A DNA stretch of 38,751 nt from a virus. A program made the position numbers and the translations under genes. The notes beneath the pieces are model-generated. The model worked only from the letters and a program-made list of their open reading frames with translations. It was not told the origin of the DNA and made no database searches. Of the stretch, positions 2,627 through 38,751 are shown one piece after another. The stretch lies in the IMG/VR virus record IMGVR_UViG_3300018954_000006, positions 1 through 38,751 of that record, one strand, 5' to 3'. Numbering within the stretch: the first letter of the stretch is position 1; each line of letters starts with the position of its first letter.

Positions 2627-3017
2627 GGGCTGGCGACTCCAGGATCTCTTTAGCTTGCTCTAGTGGCAAAGTGACCGCAGTTGTGCCGGGAGTGGAGTTC
2701 TGAAGAGTAATCTGATCACCTTCAACTTTAGTGACCGTAATCCCATAAGACTCGCCATTAGGGGCAGTAAACGAGAAATACTGACCTTCTTTGTATTCAA
2801 GTTGTTTGGACTCACTGGGATCTTTTAGTCCTTCAACTGGCTCGACTGGAACGACGTTGCCCCCTTCAGAAGGCGGGACTTGAGTGGGTTGGTCAGTTTG
2901 GTTAGGTTGCTGTTGAACAGTCTCTTTGTCAATATCAAGTTCGGATGGTGGCACAATGTCGTTGCTAAGTTTAACCTCTTCGCTTGACGGAGCTTGACTG
3001 TCTGGTACTTCTGGCAT
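2619..3017 (-). CDS. Small acidic protein, disordered N-terminus and beta-barrel-like C-terminus
   Basis: Residues 1-75 are rich in P, S, Q and E and probably disordered. Residues 76-132 look like a compact beta domain (EGQYFSFTAPNGESYGITVTK, then DQITLQN). The ATG at 3017 is preferred over the one at 3044 because purine-rich GAAGAAAG lies just upstream. Overlaps the coiled-coil gene downstream by 8 bases. The Pro/Gln linker followed by a small barrel is compatible with a phage decoration protein, but this is not established. Confidence 0.7.
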   Translation of the reverse strand: MPEVPDSQAPSSEEVKLSNDIVPPSELDIDKETVQQQPNQTDQPTQVPPSEGGNVVPVEPVEGLKDPSESKQLEYKEGQYFSFTAPNGESYGITVTKVEGDQITLQNSTPGTTAVTLPLEQAKEILESPARA

Positions 3018-3132
3018 GATTCTTTCTTCTACGTACAATATCAATAGTATTATAGCAAACTTGTGCGCCTTTTGCCGCGAAAGTTGACGTACACCGAAAG
3101 ATATAGTAGGTTAGGAAAAATCTGGGTGCAGG

Positions 3133-4774: not shown

Positions 4775-4831
4775 ATCAGCATCGGGTGCGTCTGCTAGCT
4801 TTTGTAAACTTTATTGAGCGAGAGTGGGCGG

Positions 4832-5650
4832 ATGGAGTTTTGCGAAGCAAACTTGAAGACTACAGGAGTGGGTTGCCCGAAGTTTGATCCAGATAAGTAC
4901 GTGTTAGGGGGTCTGTGTCGTAAGTTTCCCGATGAGCATCAATGGGGTTCTACAGGCAAAAGCTTGAGGCGCAAAAATAACACTGGTCATGCTGGCAATT
5001 GCATTTGCTGCAAAAAGGGCTGGACTGTTGAACAAGCTATTTACAGGCAAAAAATCAAAACCCAATCCGAAGCAGAGCGTTTAGAGGAGCAGTCACTAAG
5101 AAGTCTGAATGGAGAAGAGTGGCGAGATATTAATGGTTGGGAAGGCGAGTATGAAGTATCTAATTTAGGGCAGGTCAGAAGTATTAAAAACAACCTTGTC
5201 CTAAAACCAAAAATAGATCGACGTTATTGCTCTGTGGGTTTCTATGTTGCAGAAACAGGAAAATTCAAAAGATATCTAGTGCATCGTTTGGTTGCTATAG
5301 CCTTTATTGGTGAGCCTCCAACTCAGCAACATCAAGTCAACCACATTGATGGCAATCCTTCTAACAATAACGTTGCTAATTTAGAATGGGTCACACCATT
5401 GGAAAATACAAGACACGCAATAGAAGTGCTCAAGGTGTCTAAAGTCAACAGTGGTAACTTTCAAGCCGGAAGTCAGCACAAAGCATCAAAAATGACAGAA
5501 GATGACGTGAAGTGGATTCTAGATAATCAAGCCACAATGAAGCGGAAAGATATGGCAGCAGCCATAGGCGTATCTGTAGCACTCATTAACGACATCTGCT
5601 TGCGCCGACGTTGGACTCATATTACAAGTTGGTACGGCTTGTCAGATTAA
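4832..5650 (+). CDS. HNH homing-type endonuclease with NUMOD4 domain
   Basis: About 272 residues. A cysteine-containing N-terminal region (CICCKKGW) is followed by a NUMOD4-type module (EEWRDINGWEGEYEVSNLGQVRSI, residues about 95-125) and an HNH_3-type core (VHRLVAIAF, then HQVNHIDGNPSNNNVANLEWVT). The C-terminal helix-turn-helix (KDMAAAIGVSVALINDI) probably contacts DNA. This is the classic layout of phage free-standing homing endonucleases. The frame is open from TTG 4814. It converges with and overlaps the 1049-residue minus-strand gene by 9 bases, as expected for a gene inserted between others. Confidence 0.88.
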   Translation: MEFCEANLKTTGVGCPKFDPDKYVLGGLCRKFPDEHQWGSTGKSLRRKNNTGHAGNCICCKKGWTVEQAIYRQKIKTQSEAERLEEQSLRSLNGEEWRDINGWEGEYEVSNLGQVRSIKNNLVLKPKIDRRYCSVGFYVAETGKFKRYLVHRLVAIAFIGEPPTQQHQVNHIDGNPSNNNVANLEWVTPLENTRHAIEVLKVSKVNSGNFQAGSQHKASKMTEDDVKWILDNQATMKRKDMAAAIGVSVALINDICLRRRWTHITSWYGLSD

Positions 5651-11520: not shown

Positions 11521-12702
11521 ATGGCACGTAAACGCGGCAAGATACAAGGCGAAGACACGTTCGGTATCGTTCATCAACCTGATTGGCATTGGATAGCCAG
11601 CCAAGACCCTTGTGTAAAAGATTTGTGGATTGATTGTTGGAAAGCAGAAAAGTTTGGCGAAAGCTTTGCCAGACTTGAAACCAAAGTCAGTAAAAATTCC
11701 TGGACAAAAGCAAAAGCTGCGTTATCTCATCTATTTGAATTTCGTCCACTTCAAAAACAGTCGGCTGCTGGTCGGTGGCAAATTGAGGGATGGGAAGTTC
11801 GGAATCTGCATGGCTCGAAAACTGGCTTCCTTTCCCAACAGATAGGAGAGAAAGACGAGGCAAATAACGAGCCAAATCAAACCCTTTCATCTCCCAACGG
11901 ATGGGAGAGTAAGCGGGAGGGGTTGGGAGAAGAGTCCCATCTGATGGGAGAGCAAAACGCTGTCGGCTTTGACACAATTGGCTTTGACTCTTGCCTATTA
12001 TATAAACAAAATAGTTCTACTATCTGCAATGAAGATACAGAAAATTCTTCGTCTATATCTCGCTCTGGTTGCTCGGAGCTAGCCCCCTGCACTAAGGTTG
12101 CGGGGTCTGCTCCGGCTCCCGACGCTAAGTTGACTCGTGAAGGAAATCCGGAGGCAAGCCTTACTGACTTACCATCATCGAAAATACATCCAGAACACGG
12201 GCTAGTTAGTGAACCTGGAAAACAAGAAGATGATCTACCCGTGCAGAAGATGCTGGATCAGTGTGGTGAATTTAATACGATTTCCGCCGCGCCAATTTCG
12301 CCAACTTCCGAACCCGCGCTAGAAGCCTCGCAAAACCCGCCCGACCCTTGGGACGCCCAATCCGACACGCTGCCCACCGAACCGACCTTGCCGCCCCGTC
12401 TAGCCCCCGATCCTGCTGAATGTAGTCGGGTCTATATAACAGTCAAACAAAAGTTGTCAGAAGTTGGGCTAATGAAGGGTAATAGTCACAGATGTCTGGC
12501 AAGATTTAAGGACGAGTTGGAGAAGGGGCGGTTGGCTAGGTTGATTGAGGGAGTGCGGGAGAATATGGAGGAGGATGCGACATTGCCTCCTGAAGTATTG
12601 TTCTCTGATTATTTACTGTATGACCCGGATACATTTGATGAACCCCAAGTTTGCGTCAAAAGAAAAGATGGTCTGACTTTGGTGTCTTGGTCAAAACTTT
12701 GA
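11521..12702 (+). CDS. Three-part protein: putative winged helix, GC-rich linker, C-terminal helical domain
   Basis: 393 residues. Residues about 10-105 are the module shared with the preceding gene and likely bind DNA. Residues about 105-300 are low complexity, rich in S, P, E and N; the DNA at 12290-12430 is notably GC-rich. Residues about 300-393 are helical (QKLSEVGLMKG, then RFKDELEKGRLARLIEGVREN). The layout resembles phage or plasmid replication initiators of the O/DnaD type, but no catalytic motif is seen. Part of the linker DNA has a decayed copy at 26820-27150. Confidence 0.7.
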   Translation: MARKRGKIQGEDTFGIVHQPDWHWIASQDPCVKDLWIDCWKAEKFGESFARLETKVSKNSWTKAKAALSHLFEFRPLQKQSAAGRWQIEGWEVRNLHGSKTGFLSQQIGEKDEANNEPNQTLSSPNGWESKREGLGEESHLMGEQNAVGFDTIGFDSCLLYKQNSSTICNEDTENSSSISRSGCSELAPCTKVAGSAPAPDAKLTREGNPEASLTDLPSSKIHPEHGLVSEPGKQEDDLPVQKMLDQCGEFNTISAAPISPTSEPALEASQNPPDPWDAQSDTLPTEPTLPPRLAPDPAECSRVYITVKQKLSEVGLMKGNSHRCLARFKDELEKGRLARLIEGVRENMEEDATLPPEVLFSDYLLYDPDTFDEPQVCVKRKDGLTLVSWSKL

Positions 12703-16402: not shown

Positions 16403-16814
16403 CAATCAATTGCAACTTCCGCAGCGAACGCTATACGATTGGGCTGAGTCCGAAGGCTGGAGTGAGTTGAGATACGATGAAGTTGATCATGTGTGGCGAG
16501 GTTTTCCACATGGAGAGCTAACTGAGGTTAATGTGCCTGTCAACGTGCTTTTAGAATTCATACCTCAAGCTGCTCAAGTAGAATTTGATGCAATCTCAGT
16601 GCGACTCCAAGTACTACAGTTAGCAACAGCTAAATTCTTGAAAATTCATGGTTTGACTTGGGAAACAATAGATGCTGATGCAGTTGAAGAGTTTATGAGC
16701 CAGTATCCCGGCATGTTGTATCGTCTAGCTCATGCTCGAAATGAGTACGACTTAGCTTGCAAGTATGTCGCTTATGGAGTAGCTGTACAACTTGGATTGG
16801 TCGATTCGGACTAA
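16395..16814 (+). CDS. Small protein of unknown function
   Basis: 139 residues from ATG 16395 (ATG 16380 and 16383 are also in frame). Residues 30-60 have FPHGELTEVNVPVNVLLEFIP; the remainder is helical. Last gene of the operon; converges with the terminase gene, the two overlapping by 4 bases. Confidence 0.65.
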   Translation: MTNNQLQLPQRTLYDWAESEGWSELRYDEVDHVWRGFPHGELTEVNVPVNVLLEFIPQAAQVEFDAISVRLQVLQLATAKFLKIHGLTWETIDADAVEEFMSQYPGMLYRLAHARNEYDLACKYVAYGVAVQLGLVDSD

Positions 16815-18760
16815 ATCTCCCCAATCCACACAGGGTACTTCAAAAACTTTTCACAATAGATATAGAAGGCAACCTCTAGGAACAGAAAACTGTAAAAGAG
16901 GTCGTCATTTCCATCTGCCGCCCGAACCCACCGATCGGTTTCCGGGTCACGAGTGGGGCTTGTGAGGTGCTTGAACGGGCTTAAGTCACTTTTGCTGGTC
17001 AAATGCTTGTTCCAGACCTCTGGCAGTCTGTAGATGCTATAGCCGTCTTCAGCGGACTCAATGAAGTTCTCTAGGATGAGGTCTTGGAACTTCTGATTAC
17101 GAACGAACCAGCAGGGGTATTCAGCGCCCCCGTCCTTCACCTTATCAAGCTTCACAGCATCTTTCAACGTATCCTTCTGGTCTGCCATCTCAAGTTTAGT
17201 GATGTCATTTATCGCCACCTCATTACAGAATGTCATTACAGAATCCCGACCAGGTTCGTTATCACAAATGCCATAGACAACCTTATGTTTGCTGATGATG
17301 TCTTTAGCTCGCTCTCGTATGACTTCGGAAGAGAAGGAGATGCGTCGGATGGTCTGGCGGGAGAGTTCAACTTGGTCAAGGTTGAGATAGTCTTCGGGGA
17401 GGTAGAATTCGGCGATAGTCAAAAAGTCATGTGCCCGTCCCATGTCCATCCCGCAGAGCACAAAGTCTGGTGTACCATCGGGCTTTGGCGCTGCCAAGGC
17501 TTTCTTTAGCATCTCTAGCGTGACTCCGGTGACTGCAATCTCCGATGGAATCCCTAGCTGCTGTTGCTGCCAGTCGGCAGGCTTTGATGCCCTCAACCCA
17601 CGGTCTATGAGGTCTGCTGCAAGGTTACCGAGGGTCTTGCGGGTGAGTGGGGAGATGTGAATGCCAACTTTATGGCGAAGGTTCGCACAGGCACCAGGGT
17701 CGTCTACAGGAAGCGATTGCAGGTACTCTCGTAGCCAAAGACCCGTTCGGAGGCATTTGTAGCGAGCATTCAGCCGAGTCTTCTCCGGGAGTTCTCGCCC
17801 ACACTCCGAACAAGCAATGAATGCAGACCTTACTTGATCATCCTCATCGTGCCGCCACCAGAGTACCGGACGCCCCGACTCAGTAAATGCAGTCTCAATC
17901 ATCTTGCCAGACTTGTTCTTGCGCTTAATAGTCCGCAATAGACAGCCTATGGGATGCAATGGCAAGTGTTTGTTGCAATGGGGGCAGTGGTAGTGGGGGT
18001 AAAATTCGTGGGTACAATCGGTCATTGATTCCTCAATCCCGCCCCCACCACCGGGTGTACCGAGGTCGCGTCTAGGCTTTGTTGGAATCTTGGAGGCTGA
18101 CAAACGGGGCATGACGATTTCTTTTGCCTCTGCGCCAGTTTGAGAAGCTTCTTCCACAAACACCAAGTTTGCGGTGAAGGAGACTGCCGCACCACCCGCT
18201 GCTGCTAGGTTAGATTTGTTGGGAGCACCAGTAGAAGTCGATAGGTAGCTAAAGATTGCTGTAATGCCATCGACTTGGAAGCGGGACGACAGCTTGCGAT
18301 CGCTGCGTTGGCGAATCTTTTGTCCCGTGTCTTGCTCGAATGTCTCGGCAAACTTCTCGATAACTGGTCGCTGTTGCTCAGGAACGTTAAGTTCGCGAGA
18401 GTCTCTGGTCGCGAAAAAAAATCCCACGTTCATCTTGCCGCTAATGATGACATCTGCTAGCAAGAGATTGTGGGCGAGACTTTTGCCGCATTGAGCTGCA
18501 CCAGTGGTCAGAGTATAGGGAACTCGAAAATCTCCGATGAGTTCGAGGTATTCTCGAAACCAATCGTACACTTCAACCTTGTCATTCTTTTCTGTGTAGC
18601 CGTATTTGGCAACTCTGTCTGCAAAAGGTTGACCACCAACACGAAATACTTCATCGATGTAGTTGTCGCGCTGGCGGTTCTTGTCGTTTTCATCGTCAAG
18701 GCTGTCTAGTGTTAGCTTTAGCAGCTCATCGAAGAGGGATGTGGTCGGTTTGTCGAGCAT
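16811..18760 (-). CDS. Phage terminase large subunit, GpA family
   Basis: 649 residues, typical of GpA-like terminases, which translocate DNA into the prohead and cut it. Walker A lies at residues about 87-94 (GAAQCGKS) and Walker B at about 199-204 (LVFVEEAS). Two zinc-binding pairs follow (CPHC at about 259-262; CSEC at about 317-320). The C-terminal nuclease begins near 432 with FVLCGMDMGRAHD (Asp 439) and continues with YGICDNEPGRDS (Asp 500, Glu 502). No small-subunit gene is seen next to it. An HNH gene lies divergently 69 bases away; HNH proteins beside terminases assist cos cleavage in some phages. Confidence 0.95.
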   Translation of the reverse strand: MLDKPTTSLFDELLKLTLDSLDDENDKNRQRDNYIDEVFRVGGQPFADRVAKYGYTEKNDKVEVYDWFREYLELIGDFRVPYTLTTGAAQCGKSLAHNLLLADVIISGKMNVGFFFATRDSRELNVPEQQRPVIEKFAETFEQDTGQKIRQRSDRKLSSRFQVDGITAIFSYLSTSTGAPNKSNLAAAGGAAVSFTANLVFVEEASQTGAEAKEIVMPRLSASKIPTKPRRDLGTPGGGGGIEESMTDCTHEFYPHYHCPHCNKHLPLHPIGCLLRTIKRKNKSGKMIETAFTESGRPVLWWRHDEDDQVRSAFIACSECGRELPEKTRLNARYKCLRTGLWLREYLQSLPVDDPGACANLRHKVGIHISPLTRKTLGNLAADLIDRGLRASKPADWQQQQLGIPSEIAVTGVTLEMLKKALAAPKPDGTPDFVLCGMDMGRAHDFLTIAEFYLPEDYLNLDQVELSRQTIRRISFSSEVIRERAKDIISKHKVVYGICDNEPGRDSVMTFCNEVAINDITKLEMADQKDTLKDAVKLDKVKDGGAEYPCWFVRNQKFQDLILENFIESAEDGYSIYRLPEVWNKHLTSKSDLSPFKHLTSPTRDPETDRWVRAADGNDDLFYSFLFLEVAFYIYCEKFLKYPVWIGEI

Positions 18761-26451: not shown

Positions 26452-26670
26452 ATAGGGTTTTGAATAATGTTTTCCCCGCTGGTTAAGCTTCAATTGGGCA
26501 ATAGTAGTCCGAACACTCATGAGATTCCAACTATGGCTCACCAATCATGCTCTGAACAGGGGCAGGAGTCCTTTGTCACGTAATCACCAGAGTATACGTC
26601 CCAGCAATCCGTCAAGTTCGTCCAGCTTTCATTCTACCGCACAAAACCTAGTGTCAGTGCGGGATTTCTA
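26452..26670. other. Intergenic stretch left of the inverted repeat
   Basis: No credible gene. A hairpin ccgcac/gtgcgg lies at 26637-26662, just before the 94-bp repeat. Together with the next two entries it makes an 810-base gene-free interval. Confidence 0.6.
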
Positions 26671-26764
26671 GTAAATGGGAAAAGTCGATTTACTGTAAAT
26701 CGGGAAAGCCAATTTACTTATATACATAGAGTACATTACATAAAATAAGATCTAATTATCTCGC
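26671..26764 (-). repeat. 94-bp inverted repeat, right copy
   Basis: Reverse complement of 31-124 with one mismatch. Its palindrome reads cgatttactgtaaatcg at 26686-26702. Beyond its right end, the sequence keeps about 70 % similarity to bases 1-30 in inverted orientation. Confidence 0.93.
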
Positions 26765-26799
26765 TTAAAGCCTCGAACACAGCTAGTCGGTCAGGTTGA

Positions 26800-27180
26800 A
26801 GAAAGACTTCTCGTGAATCACGCGCTCGGTCGCTTGGGCTTAACCTCTTCACTAAGGTTACGAGGTCAGCCCGTCTCCGTCGCTGAATAGACTAGTCCTT
26901 GCTCGCGCCTCCGTACAAAGATTTAGATTTGTTCGCTATCGCTCACGAAGCAAAGCTGACCTGACTTACTATCATCGTCTTTGGATCTCGAACACGGGCT
27001 AGTCGCTACGAACGAAGACAGACACTTAAACTACCCGTGCTATTGAAGCTGGATCGGTGAAGATCATTAAATACGATTTCGCCACCGCAAATTTCGCCTC
27101 AGAGCCGCGCCGACTTCCTGACCACCCAATCCCACCACTTGCCCTGTAGATCTCGCTTCCTTCGCCTTGCAGCAGCCGCT
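26800..27180 (+). pseudogene. Decayed copy of the linker region of the 11521 gene
   Basis: Shares ordered blocks with 12060-12400: cactaaggtt (26850 vs 12090), gaacacgggctagt (26990 vs 12193), ctacccgtgc (27031 vs 12235), followed by a collinear stretch ending in aatacgattt and aatttcgcc. Spacing differs by indels and no frame remains open. It lies directly beside the right inverted-repeat copy. Confidence 0.7.
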
Positions 27181-28162: not shown

Positions 28163-28542
28163 AGTGCTGCGCGAAAAGATTGCGTTAATGTCCCCGAAAA
28201 CGTCCACATAACCCCGTCCTCACACCCCCGTACCGTCGCTGGACTTGCCTGATTGATCGTGTATTCCTTGCAAGTCCACAGCCGCCCTCGCAGCTCTGGT
28301 GGGGCATTTGAAGGGAATCTGAACGGGAAGATTCCCCGACGTTCCTTCAGAAAAGTCTCCATCTCACCCCCATTCCCGATAAGCTGATTGACAGCCACAC
28401 TCATCTTCACCGAGTTCAATCCAGGACTGACTCGACTCTGAAGAAGCCCCGGCTCCTTCTGCTGCTCAAGCGTTCTTACGTCACATTCGTAAGTGATTGT
28501 TGTACCATAGGCAAGGGTTAGAGGGATGACAGGGTATGACAT
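28159..28542 (-). CDS. Phage minor tail protein M-like
   Basis: 127 residues. TITYECDVRTLEQQKEPGLLQSRVSPGLNSVKMSV near the start, then FLKERRGIFPFRFPSNAPPELRGRLWTCKEYTI and TFSGTLTQSF follow the LambdaM layout (RG..PF, then a C.E..I strand and TF...L). Translationally coupled to gpL through ATGA, as in lambda (M then L). More diverged than the two M domains at 9390 and 5642. Confidence 0.82.
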   Translation of the reverse strand: MSYPVIPLTLAYGTTITYECDVRTLEQQKEPGLLQSRVSPGLNSVKMSVAVNQLIGNGGEMETFLKERRGIFPFRFPSNAPPELRGRLWTCKEYTINQASPATVRGCEDGVMWTFSGTLTQSFRAAL

Positions 28543-28657
28543 GAGTGGTCAGTGATTATTTCAGCTATCAGTGTAATTGGACATAGGTGGTCGTATGAGC
28601 GGATTGACACGCAGACTGAAGATTGTTAGAGTGGGTATTACAGAATTAGGTTAAATC

Positions 28658-34868: not shown

Positions 34869-35165
34869 TTACCACTTATTAGTCCAACAAGGGCGATAGC
34901 GAACGATTGTTGACAGTAGTTCTTTAAGTCCATTGAAACTGTAGATAGGCAATGGATCAGAATAGACACTCAAATTTTTGATAGTAAAAACGGGTGTGTT
35001 CGGGTTTTCTCTTGATATTTCAATAGCTCGCTCTAGCTCATCGAATGTATCTATTGCTAATTCAAGACAGTAAGTCTCTCCGCTGGGAGCAACCATCTCA
35101 AACAATTGTCTGGGTACAAATTCTTCGACGTGTGATAGTGTTAATTGCTTTGCAGGAACTTTCAT
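34869..35165 (-). CDS. Small protein of unknown function
   Basis: 98 residues, mixed alpha/beta: VAPSGETYCLELAIDTFDELERAIEISRENPNTPVFTI. No membrane segment. First minus-strand gene left of the motif array. ATG with CAGGAA downstream context only. Not recognised. Confidence 0.6.
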   Translation of the reverse strand: MKVPAKQLTLSHVEEFVPRQLFEMVAPSGETYCLELAIDTFDELERAIEISRENPNTPVFTIKNLSVYSDPLPIYSFNGLKELLSTIVRYRPCWTNKW

Positions 35166-35669
35166 AATTTTATAGTGTGGTTTTCTAAATTCTAACGAAT
35201 CAGCGCACGGTTTTTATTGTTATTTGAAATTATTGTGTAGCAAATCCGGACACCTAATATCAGAATTCGGACTGTCTGGATTTACACACCAAGATGACAT
35301 AAAACAATACTACGTATACGTAGCTGTCCGATTTACTGTCCGGTTATTAAACCAACTCTATTGACTGTCCGGATTTCATAATTGAGTGTCCGAATTCTTA
35401 AAATGTGATAGACATCCACCAATTTACTGTGGATAGCCATTAGTTTCAGTTATCGGCTCTCAACTTTTCTGACAACTAATGACTGACTACTTACAACTCT
35501 ATTGCAATCTATTCTCAATAACCTTCCCACTAAGTATAAATACCTATCCGAATTTACTGTCCGATTAGGTGTCCGATTTTATCAAGTCAAATTGTCACTG
35601 TCCGAATTTGTTGTCACATAGAAATGTAAATTTGTTAGAATTAAACGTAAAATCACATAGGTCTAAAAG
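35166..35669. repeat. Gene-free array of tGTCCGaattt repeats
   Basis: Copies, most in direct orientation: 35272, 35324, 35336, 35365, 35387, 35546, 35557, 35570 and 35598. Inverted copies lie at about 35244-35257 and 35262-35273. Many are followed by atttactgt (35332, 35422, 35551). Spacings cluster at about 11-22 bases. A perfect 14-base palindrome CTACGTATACGTAG is at 35310-35323. It lies immediately upstream of an HTH-like gene. It resembles an iteron replication origin or a transposase/recombinase binding end. Confidence 0.8.
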
Positions 35670-36056
35670 ATGAATGACACTGCATTAGATTTCACTGGCT
35701 GGTCTAAAGAAGACTTTCGTGGCTTTAGTAGCCGGGACGATTGGGCACTAAAACTTGGTATTAGCGTAAGAACGATTCATAGGTACGAAAGGAAAGTGCT
35801 AGGAAACGCTGAAGACCGACTACCTCAAGCGTTTTATTGGCAAGGTAGGCGAGGAAAGAAAAAATTAGATTTTTACCAAAAAACTATTCTGTGGATAATA
35901 CAAAAACTGACCTTTGGCGAAGCTTATGCTGACCAAGGAATGAGCTATGAGCAGGTACAGAATTGGTTTTCTGAGATAGATCAAAAAACGGGCAAAAGAC
36001 GCATCTTGTCTCTTACCCGACCAGTTGTAAAAGAAATAATTTTTACTGGGCAGTAA
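35670..36056 (+). CDS. HTH protein beside the repeat array
   Basis: 128 residues. Residues about 15-50 look like a helix-turn-helix (DDWALKLGISVRTIHRYERKVLG). Residues about 85-115 are a second helical unit (LTFGEAYADQGMSYEQVQNWFSEID). Position directly after the repeat array makes it the leading candidate for the protein that binds it. No replication-initiator or transposase catalytic motif is visible. It converges with the RHH gene on the other strand, overlapping its end by 14 bases. Confidence 0.65.
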   Translation: MNDTALDFTGWSKEDFRGFSSRDDWALKLGISVRTIHRYERKVLGNAEDRLPQAFYWQGRRGKKKLDFYQKTILWIIQKLTFGEAYADQGMSYEQVQNWFSEIDQKTGKRRILSLTRPVVKEIIFTGQ

Positions 36057-36255
36057 CCATAGAACAGTCTTTGTTGGGTATTTTTTCCCTATTCACTGCT
36101 AACTGCACTCTCATCCTTTCCTCCTCCAACTCCAACGCAGCCTCTATAAATGGCAGCAGAAACTCACTAATACTTTGGTTGCTATGGGCAGCGGCAGTCT
36201 TTACCCGCTTCCTCATGGATTCGTTTACATACAAGGTCAATTTGGGCGCAGTCAT
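36043..36255 (-). CDS. RHH-type (Arc/CopG-like) protein
   Basis: 70 residues from ATG 36255 (GGAGAA upstream). A strand (KLTLYVNESM) followed by helices with SNQSISEFLLPFIEAALELEEER fits an RHH DNA-binding domain. Divergent from the 36409 gene, whose promoter region it may control. Confidence 0.72.
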   Translation of the reverse strand: MTAPKLTLYVNESMRKRVKTAAAHSNQSISEFLLPFIEAALELEEERMRVQLAVNREKIPNKDCSMVTAQ

Positions 36256-36334
36256 AACAAGGTTCTCCTGAGTTGGTACGTTATCGCTCTGTATCAAGTC
36301 ACTAGCATATCATATTGTCGTCAATATATTTTTG

Positions 36335-36408: not shown

Positions 36409-37092
36409 ATGACTAGTGAAGAAACCTTACAGTATTTAAGCCAGTACCCCCAAAACCAACTAGAGACTGCTCTTGCTGAACTAGGGTATTCGCTAGATTC
36501 TACGGATCTACCTGAAAACATAGTTGAAAGTATTGAGGCAATACTTGAGTCGGCAAGTGAGGCGGTAGCATCACGACAGCAACAACTGCCCAGTGCTAAA
36601 AGCAGTCCTGCTGAAAGCACAAAAGAAGATGAAGCCATTGTCGTCCAAGAGACGGCTAACATGATGGCTGAAATCCTAGATGTGCGAAACGTTCAAATCA
36701 ACCCCAAGGCTTTATTCGCAGTAGCTCAGTGTGCGATCAACGATGCTAAGGCTCAAGCAGCAGCTTTGGATAAAATTTGCAGACAAACGCTAGCTGCTGA
36801 ACTTCGCAAAGGACAACAACAGCGTACCGATGACTTGCTAGAGGTCATGAAAGCAAATCATCAACTGACCCAAGAAATCTTTTCAGATGCAAATTTGCAG
36901 AAGATGGTTGGTCAGGCAGTTCCAGAATATCAACCAAAAGTTGACTTAGACGTATTTATTCAAGAAGTCAAATTGGATGCCAATAGATCTGCTGACAGAG
37001 AACAGGAACGTGTCCGGGTGGGAAACGAAGTTCGTGCGAGCAAGGTAGATTTCGACTTAGACGGGTTTTTAAACGAGGTATGGGGGCAGTGA
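36409..37092 (+). CDS. Coiled-coil protein of unknown function, first of a membrane-protein cluster
   Basis: 227 residues. Residues 1-45 helical and acidic, 50-80 disordered, 80-165 long helices (ALFAVAQCAINDAKAQAAALDKICR). The C-terminus repeats a VDLDVFIQEV/VDFDLDGFLNEVW short acidic motif (about residues 178-187 and 213-225). GGAGAGAGA precedes the ATG. Overlaps the next gene by 13 bases. Confidence 0.7.
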   Translation: MTSEETLQYLSQYPQNQLETALAELGYSLDSTDLPENIVESIEAILESASEAVASRQQQLPSAKSSPAESTKEDEAIVVQETANMMAEILDVRNVQINPKALFAVAQCAINDAKAQAAALDKICRQTLAAELRKGQQQRTDDLLEVMKANHQLTQEIFSDANLQKMVGQAVPEYQPKVDLDVFIQEVKLDANRSADREQERVRVGNEVRASKVDFDLDGFLNEVWGQ

Positions 37093-37469
37093 GATTACAG
37101 ACATCTAACACAATCGTCATGTTTGCTTCGATTACAGGGGCTTGTGCCCTCTTTGGCGGCATAGTTCAAGTGTCTCAGAATCTAGATTCCAATCGACTAG
37201 AGTCTACCCGGAGCAAATCTCTCACAACAATTGCTCAACATAAGATCGCTGATACCTGCCGCCGCAGCGATGGAGGGCAATTCTTCAAGAATCAAATCAT
37301 TCAACAAGACAGTCAAATTTTGACTCCAACTTCTTGTTATGAGAACGAACTGGGAGAAAGCGCTTATGTTGCTTATGAGGGTGGCAGACTAGTGATAAAA
37401 GATGTTTTCTCTGCCAAAGAGGTCAATTCTAAGATTTCTCAAATAACCCAAAAAGGAGAAAAACAATGA
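37080..37469 (+). CDS. Membrane-anchored small protein
   Basis: 129 residues. One N-terminal membrane segment at residues about 10-30 (NTIVMFASITGACALFGGIV), then a soluble, likely periplasmic domain with two cysteines (DTCRRSDGG, TPTSCYENE) that may form a disulfide. Overlaps both neighbours (13 and 4 bases), so it is translated as part of the operon. Confidence 0.7.
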   Translation: MGAVRLQTSNTIVMFASITGACALFGGIVQVSQNLDSNRLESTRSKSLTTIAQHKIADTCRRSDGGQFFKNQIIQQDSQILTPTSCYENELGESAYVAYEGGRLVIKDVFSAKEVNSKISQITQKGEKQ

Positions 37470-38245
37470 GTAAAGTCAGAGAACCTTGGGATAAGAGAGT
37501 AACAGGGCTAGTTGATAAAATCGGACGAGTCATTCGTTCGATCTGGGATATTCTTTACAAAATCATTCAGCAGACAATTGAAAGCGTCAACTACATTGTC
37601 AGATTGCTGATTAGATTAGTAATCAATCCTAGTGCAACTATCTTCTTCTGCTTAGGGCTATTAGCATTTGTAACGGTAGTGACAAGTGTGCAATGGTGGC
37701 AAATTGGCGTTTGGATCGGAGTGATGACTGGCGTTCCAAGTCTAATGGGCTGGGGCTTAGGTCTAGTGGGAATGATTGCCGGATTGTTTATAAACATTGA
37801 AGAGCTAAGTCCTGAGCTGCATAAGATTGACGAAAGTTTGGCAAAAGCATACGACAAGATGGGGGTAAGATTAGACCACACTCCTGAGCCAGAAAATCTA
37901 AAAGACCGACTAGCGAACTGGTTTAGCTACGACATGGCTCTGGCAAAAAAAGGCAGGTTGGTCTCGTATGTGGCAGAGTCGGCTGTTGTATTAAGTTACA
38001 TCTTCATAACAGGATTAACTTTTCAAGCAATTGTTATCGCACTTATTGCCCTGATCTTTCCTGAAGTAACAGTTAAATATCTGGCATCTAAAACTTCACT
38101 GTTCGGTACGGCTAGTGCTCTAGCCAACCAGATCGAGAGTGAAAGCGGAACTACTAAAAATTTTGGCGGTGCTAGAAGTGGAAAACCTAGCTCTTTTGAA
38201 GCTCCGGGAATGGAGACTCCTAGTGGCAAAAAAGACAGGTTCTGA
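37466..38245 (+). CDS. Polytopic membrane protein of unknown function
   Basis: 259 residues. Hydrophobic segments near residues 55-75 (ATIFFCLGLLAFVTVVTSV), 80-110 (IGVWIGVMTGVPSLMGWGLGLVGMIAGLFI), 165-190 and 190-200 (VLSYIFITGLTFQAIVIALIALIF), with a basic N-terminus and a disordered C-terminus (GGARSGKPSSFEAPGMETPSG). GGAG precedes the ATG. A strong terminator follows at 38267. Confidence 0.72.
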   Translation: MSKVREPWDKRVTGLVDKIGRVIRSIWDILYKIIQQTIESVNYIVRLLIRLVINPSATIFFCLGLLAFVTVVTSVQWWQIGVWIGVMTGVPSLMGWGLGLVGMIAGLFINIEELSPELHKIDESLAKAYDKMGVRLDHTPEPENLKDRLANWFSYDMALAKKGRLVSYVAESAVVLSYIFITGLTFQAIVIALIALIFPEVTVKYLASKTSLFGTASALANQIESESGTTKNFGGARSGKPSSFEAPGMETPSGKKDRF

Positions 38246-38293: not shown

Positions 38294-38307
38294 AAGGAGA
38301 GTTGAAA

Positions 38308-38751
38308 ATGGATTTAATACCAGAGAGTGACTTAAATTTACGAAACGTCACTGCCGACCCGATTGGTGAAATCATTCGTTCATCAACAGTAATACGAGAG
38401 ATGAACCTAGGAGTTAGAACCAGACTCATTGCCGAACTGATCGTTAAAATTGACGAATTAGAAGACCAAGGGGAAAAAACCTTTTCTCGCAACATGATGC
38501 TGGGTATCGGCTCTAGTTTTTCAATGGCAGCAGCGATCGCCTCTACTGGCGCTTTAGCTCCTGTTGCAGGCATTTGTCTTTCTGTTAGTGCATTAGGGTC
38601 ATGGGGAGCCTGTATGTATGAGGTCTTTACTGAAAACTTAAAACTTGAACCAATTAGAGACGCATTAAAACGTTTGTCATTAGCCCTCAAATCTGCACCA
38701 ACCGACAAGTGGGCAGCAGTTTGGGCAGTTGTAGGCGACGACATCTTTATC
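38308..38751 (+). CDS. Membrane-associated protein, truncated by the window end
   Basis: 148 codons visible, open to the end. AAGGAG precedes ATG 38308. N-terminal helices (VIREMNLGVRTRLIAELIVKIDELEDQG), then a hydrophobic stretch at about 65-105 (MLGIGSSFSMAAAIASTGALAPVAGICLSVSALGSWGA). Lies 15 bases after a terminator but in the same direction as the membrane cluster. Confidence 0.7.
   Translation, partial: MDLIPESDLNLRNVTADPIGEIIRSSTVIREMNLGVRTRLIAELIVKIDELEDQGEKTFSRNMMLGIGSSFSMAAAIASTGALAPVAGICLSVSALGSWGACMYEVFTENLKLEPIRDALKRLSLALKSAPTDKWAAVWAVVGDDIFI

Follow-up and report, generated by a model that had tools for sequence, protein, structure and literature searches.

What is the function of a dense array of TGTCCG-type boxes located directly upstream of a gene for a small helix-turn-helix (HTH) protein, and which protein recognizes it? 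The array lies in the window, that is, the whole 38,751-nucleotide stretch of DNA analysed, a 38.7-kb virus record that contains terminase and tail genes and is probably a fragment. A replication origin with iterons, a segregation site and a Tn7-like transposon end had been considered in the initial annotation of this sequence. The explanation that fits best at present is an iteron-type binding region for the HTH protein, from which the promoter of the HTH gene and a second operon would be controlled; it is proposed tentatively, at a little less than an even chance.

Architecture of the array

The array spans 366 bp (35243-35608) and comprises 11 TGTCCG-type boxes, eight of them exact and three with one mismatch (Table 1). 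For the pattern TGTCCGRWTT with at most one mismatch, 22 matches occur in the window compared to 8.4 ± 3.0 in shuffled sequences, and half of the 22 (11) are located inside the array. No other hexamer of the window clusters as strongly as TGTCCG/CGGACA, which occurs eight times in 366 bp; the next hexamer unrelated to the motif reaches five, and the maximum count per 366 bp in 200 first-order Markov windows was four. The dense array reported initially is thus confirmed, and so is most of its description: the "at least ten copies" amount to 11, the 14-bp palindrome is present, and the HTH gene follows downstream, separated from the array by 61 bp. The orientation is indeed mixed (nine forward, two reverse), although 9 of the 11 boxes point at the HTH gene. 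The AT-rich spacing is real but not pronounced: AT amounts to 61-65% across array and spacer versus 56% in the whole window, and rises to 74% between array and gene.

Table 1. Features of the array and its surroundings (window coordinates)
Feature	Position	Strand	Basis or remark
Divergent gene across the array	34869..35165	-	Kept in the relative G001 (43%)
Box cluster A	35243..35396	+	7 boxes (2 reverse, 5 forward); palindrome inside
Box, cluster A	35243-35252	-	Pattern scan
Box AGTCCG, cluster A	35264-35273	-	Pattern scan
Box TGTCTG, cluster A	35273-35282	+	Pattern scan
14-bp perfect palindrome CTACGTATACGTAG	35310-35323	.	Between boxes of cluster A
Boxes, cluster A	35325, 35337, 35366, 35387	+	Pattern scan
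Spacer	35397..35544	.	148 bp, without clear TGTCCG-type boxes, 65% AT
Box cluster B	35545..35608	+	4 forward boxes, spacing 13, 12, 29
Box TATCCG, cluster B	35545	+	Pattern scan
Boxes, cluster B	35558, 35570, 35599	+	Pattern scan
Promoter-like site GTCACA-17-TAGAAT, extended -10	35613..35641	+	Weak consensus match
128-aa HTH-type protein, presumed array ligand	35670..36056	+	Without Pfam or PHROG family
Small convergent gene	36043..36297	-	Weak DUF6364 match, below family cut-off
Three genes (227, 129, 259 aa), function unassigned	36409..38245	+	Order after HTH gene same in G001
Gene start, cut by window end	38302..38751	+	By gene order, counterpart of the 611-aa protein of G001

A spacing of 12 + 29 bp is common to both clusters (35325/35337/35366 and 35558/35570/35599); its repetition despite the differing sequence between the boxes suggests that the box geometry is kept. 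The promoter-like site, weak as its match to the consensus is, begins 5 bp past the last box. One perfect DnaA box (TTATCCACA) is present, within the HTH gene of the window.

A distant relative with two arrays

Searches with the terminase and tail proteins yielded one close relative, G001 (IMGVR_UViG_3300035686_000003, 147.7 kb), which is largely syntenic with the window and whose genes were taken as the longest open frames, uncurated; the terminase of the window phage has no match among 50,697 phage records. At the DNA level, the array region gave no match in phages and a single, insignificant hit in plasmids. In G001, an array precedes the homologous HTH gene (36% identity), its motif being TTTCYG as opposed to TGTCCG in the window. 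Both phages have the same layout in common: a box cluster, a box-poor spacer, a second box cluster and a gene start. In cluster B of G001, on the promoter side, five boxes follow each other in steps of exactly 11 bp. The G001 arrays were also scanned for DnaA boxes, and none was found.

A second array of G001 is located 92 kb away (2512-2888) in inverted orientation, with 80% identity over 385 bp; downstream of it lies a gene cluster encoding PKD/Ig-domain, glycosyltransferase and phosphatase-like proteins. Alignment of the pair reveals conservation of both box clusters and divergence of the spacer; cluster B is 100% identical between the copies, and the identity extends ~40 bp beyond the boxes to CAATTG. 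Both copies precede a gene in equal relative orientation, and the second retains cluster A though it has no divergent gene there. The conserved clusters, kept even without a divergent gene, indicate that the element is built from two clusters, the spacer between them and a promoter side.

In G001, the HTH gene is followed by the three homologous genes, a 611-aa protein that matches no family in Pfam or PHROGs and shows P-loop-like motifs by eye, an exonuclease-like protein, a helicase, a DnaD-like helicase loader and DnaB, then by two genes that by eye resemble MazG and ThyX genes, and by a DnaE-like polymerase. According to this gene order, the array heads the replication region, at the point where the tail and the replication genes diverge. 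A promoter-like sequence separating the HTH gene from its downstream neighbour implies that the HTH gene may be transcribed alone.

Further repeats and insertions occur in the two records. A 21-bp tandem repeat (AATAGGCGGCAACTCATTTCC) is found at each end of the G001 contig (147613-147706 and 4-97), suggesting a genome, perhaps circular or permuted, that was broken at the repeat; nearby, 147323-147495 is a partial copy of the gene at 38623-38793. The DnaD-like gene of G001 contains four copies of CAATTTGATCCGGT (84490-84550). A ~370-bp repeat belonging to the same dispersed array family recurs at three intergenic places (28192-28577, 66419-66790 and 127614-127996), each time, as read off the gene list, ahead of a gene and with the same orientation relative to it. 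The G001 terminase (114896-117934) has ~366 extra residues at residue 94 compared to that of the window (16811-18760); the insertion is situated at a P-loop-like GKS motif, leaves the open frame uninterrupted and looks like an intein. The window itself harbours a 24-bp tandem repeat of the AGTAAATCGACTTTCCCCATTTAC type in two inverted copies (77-129 and 26663-26794, 124 bp shared), a segment (26961-27098) resembling part of the 393-aa gene at 11521-12702, and a NUMOD4/HNH-type homing-endonuclease-like gene (4814-5650, 71% in G001).

The HTH protein as presumed ligand

The HTH protein has one detected relative, that of G001, and two members of the family are known: no relatives were found among genome contigs and plasmids, nor homologues in 29 other phage records with TGTCCG arrays, a set without a positive control. 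Its HTH domain is predicted from the sequence and from the helices of a low-confidence structural model (pLDDT 65), for which no significant fold match was obtained. The pairing of array and HTH gene is kept in both genomes compared; that the array stays beside this gene despite 36% protein identity and a motif shift of about one base supports, as far as sequence comparison goes, binding of the array by the HTH protein. The initially suspected link between the array, the HTH gene and a new type of binding protein thus gains from the conserved pairing, whereas the ligand itself remains presumptive.

The array could operate in the following manner, in which we infer the HTH protein as ligand, the cooperativity, the looping and the sign of the effect (activation or repression): Cooperative binding of the HTH protein to the boxes would join the two box clusters across the spacer. 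The protein would thereby set the activity of the promoter directly downstream of the array and, with it, control its own synthesis as well as the switch to expression of the replication region. In G001, the second array copy would place another operon under the control of the same protein.

Support for the array as an operator of the HTH protein comes from the conserved pairing, the 11-bp phasing in G001, the second copy with its conserved promoter side and, weakly matched as it is, the promoter-like site close behind the last box of the window. Several points argue against it: 11 boxes over 366 bp make a large operator; cluster A is maintained in the second G001 copy, where it has no divergent gene to serve; the promoter match is weak in the window, and a promoter scan before the G001 HTH gene found none; the HTH protein lacks an assigned family, a good model and a significant fold match; and the frequent location of TGTCCG arrays of other phages within or next to genes of replication speaks for an origin.

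A replication origin as the main rival

The array may instead be an origin, in which either the HTH protein or the DnaD-like loader acts as the phage initiator and binds the boxes as iterons, the DNA melts beside the clusters and DnaB is loaded. This main rival is a substantial possibility, although it probably does not hold; it implies two such origins in G001. In its favour, the G001 array heads the DnaD-DnaB-helicase-polymerase region, and several short sites in helical phase are present, as in origins of the lambda O type (11 boxes in the window, five at 11 bp in G001). Association with replication genes is seen in G001 only.

The motif itself is recurrent. When viral contigs were scanned for three TGTCCG boxes, at least 120 loci were obtained, compared to 56 in all for a single control hexamer of the same base composition with CpG at the same place. 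Arrays with boxes in both orientations make up 19 of 38 large non-redundant TGTCCG arrays among the matches listed but none of 17 control arrays; the latter are mostly coding repeats with a spacing in multiples of three, while the TGTCCG spacing, among the matches listed, peaks at 9-13 and 22-24 bp, which corresponds to one or two turns of the helix. The neighbours of the TGTCCG arrays are mainly O-like initiators, DnaD-like loaders and primase/helicases, whereas portal proteins and proteins without assigned function lead at the control arrays; this tally of PHROG families is free of bias from query proteins taken from the test loci. A replication gene was located within 2.5 kb of 12 of the 19 two-orientation TGTCCG arrays among the matches listed (a 13th, L088, was added by PHROGs) and near 29 of 71 TGTCCG arrays with at least four boxes among the matches listed, compared to 3 of 38 for the control, counts that lean towards the test set because some query proteins come from test loci.

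Among these loci (L016-L135), both-orientation arrays recur across unrelated phages and frequently lie within or next to genes for O-like initiators, DnaD-like proteins or primases. Palindromic forms of the motif occur as TGTCCGGAAACCGGACA (L093) and TGTCCGGATTTCGGACA (L021, L134). The palindrome of the window is not enriched near the TGTCCG arrays of other phages, where one similar case was observed: in L036, an array (2918-3043) directly 3' of a primase/helicase gene is accompanied by the palindrome TGTATACTACGTATACAG, which has ATACTACGTATAC in common with that of the window, possibly by chance, and array and palindrome are followed by a very AT-rich stretch. In the experimentally studied lactococcal origins of TP901-1 and Tuc2009, no TGTCCG array was found, and a literature search retrieved no paper on TGTCCG arrays in phages.

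Other evidence disfavours an origin. After correction for the direction of the genes, the GC skew of G001 has its switches around 33 and 105-116 kb and not at the arrays, and a pair of switches at 2/94 kb accounts for only 2% of the skew residual; in phages, however, this test is a weak one. Separate iterons, with a different motif, lie inside the DnaD-like gene of G001; the second array copy precedes a gene cluster unrelated to replication, with its promoter side conserved; and some TGTCCG arrays elsewhere adjoin integrases instead. In lambdoid phages, the iterons are located within the O gene (PMC7466680), a precedent for iterons tied to an initiator; the window array is not inside an O- or DnaD-like gene but intergenic, before the HTH gene. 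The initial proposal of an origin stays viable, as the G001 array comes first in the replication region and TGTCCG arrays of other phages are frequent at replication genes; the GC-skew switch that had been suggested as a check is absent at the arrays of G001.

A broader claim would be that TGTCCG is shared by the initiators of many unrelated phages, that such arrays are a general signature of replication control and that the HTH protein founds a new, minimal family of initiators or regulators that bind arrays, acting at two duplicated sites of its genome. This claim is unlikely.

Unlikely alternatives: partition site, attachment site or transposon end

ParR- and TubR-type partition sites consist of box clusters flanking a spacer upstream of the gene for a DNA-binding protein. 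By analogy, the clusters and spacer before the HTH gene could be a centromere to which the HTH protein binds, in the manner of plasmid-like prophages, and the G001 gene with P-loop-like motifs downstream might be taken for the partner. This segregation site, also proposed initially, is improbable: neither record contains an AAA_31/ParA match, and the P-loop protein, without Pfam or PHROG family, is encoded three genes and possibly a second promoter away from the HTH gene. An attachment-site arm region or another recombinase site is more doubtful still, since neither the window nor G001 has a tyrosine integrase, even though two TGTCCG arrays with at least six boxes among the matches listed adjoin tyrosine integrases (L078, L084). 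Least probable of all is a transposon end with TnsB-, TniA- or MuA-type binding sites: TGTCC-type repeated boxes with one dominant direction and the inverted second copy in G001, the sort of copy that the initial annotation had advised to search for, would fit, but no rve transposase is encoded in the window (a fragment) or in the much longer G001, both G001 copies face a gene with their promoter side, and diverged spacers between conserved clusters are unlike element boundaries. The rve, AAA_31/ParA and tyrosine integrase searches of both records gave matches for their positive controls, and the absence of all three makes these readings unlikely, with the proviso that the window is a fragment.

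Comparison with known systems

The window array resembles the origins of lambda (O) and phi80 (gp15) in having several short sites tied to replication genes; there, the sites differ in sequence (the TTCCCGAAAACGG type in phi80) and form part of the initiator gene itself, whereas here they are upstream of a small HTH gene without similarity to O. The phage loci with O- or DnaD-like genes (L049, L134, L093, L036) have the same hexamer, one- or two-turn spacing and both orientations, and differ in that their arrays are located in or beside initiator or primase genes. Iteron plasmids of the RepA/RepE type carry their array directly upstream of the gene for its binder, where it can serve both replication and autoregulation. 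The position of the window array before the gene of its presumed binder is analogous; the HTH protein matches no Rep family and is about half the usual size, and the boxes occur in both orientations. By the same analogy, regulatory and origin roles of the array would be compatible and not exclusive. Multi-operator regions of phage regulators are similar to the window and G001 arrays in their several promoter-proximal sites, the adjacent regulator and a copy before another operon; the arrays described here differ by more sites, a long conserved distal cluster and a regulator without assigned family.

Implications

As a binding region of the HTH protein, the array would provide a first handle on how the start of the replication region is controlled in a phage group without close known relatives, and it brings to light an HTH family that has no known relatives, along with defined candidate target sites. 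The recurrence of TGTCCG at genes for replication initiators and primases is a by-product that may outweigh the main finding: if binding is confirmed, recurrent both-orientation TGTCCG arrays would allow phage origins to be located by sequence alone.
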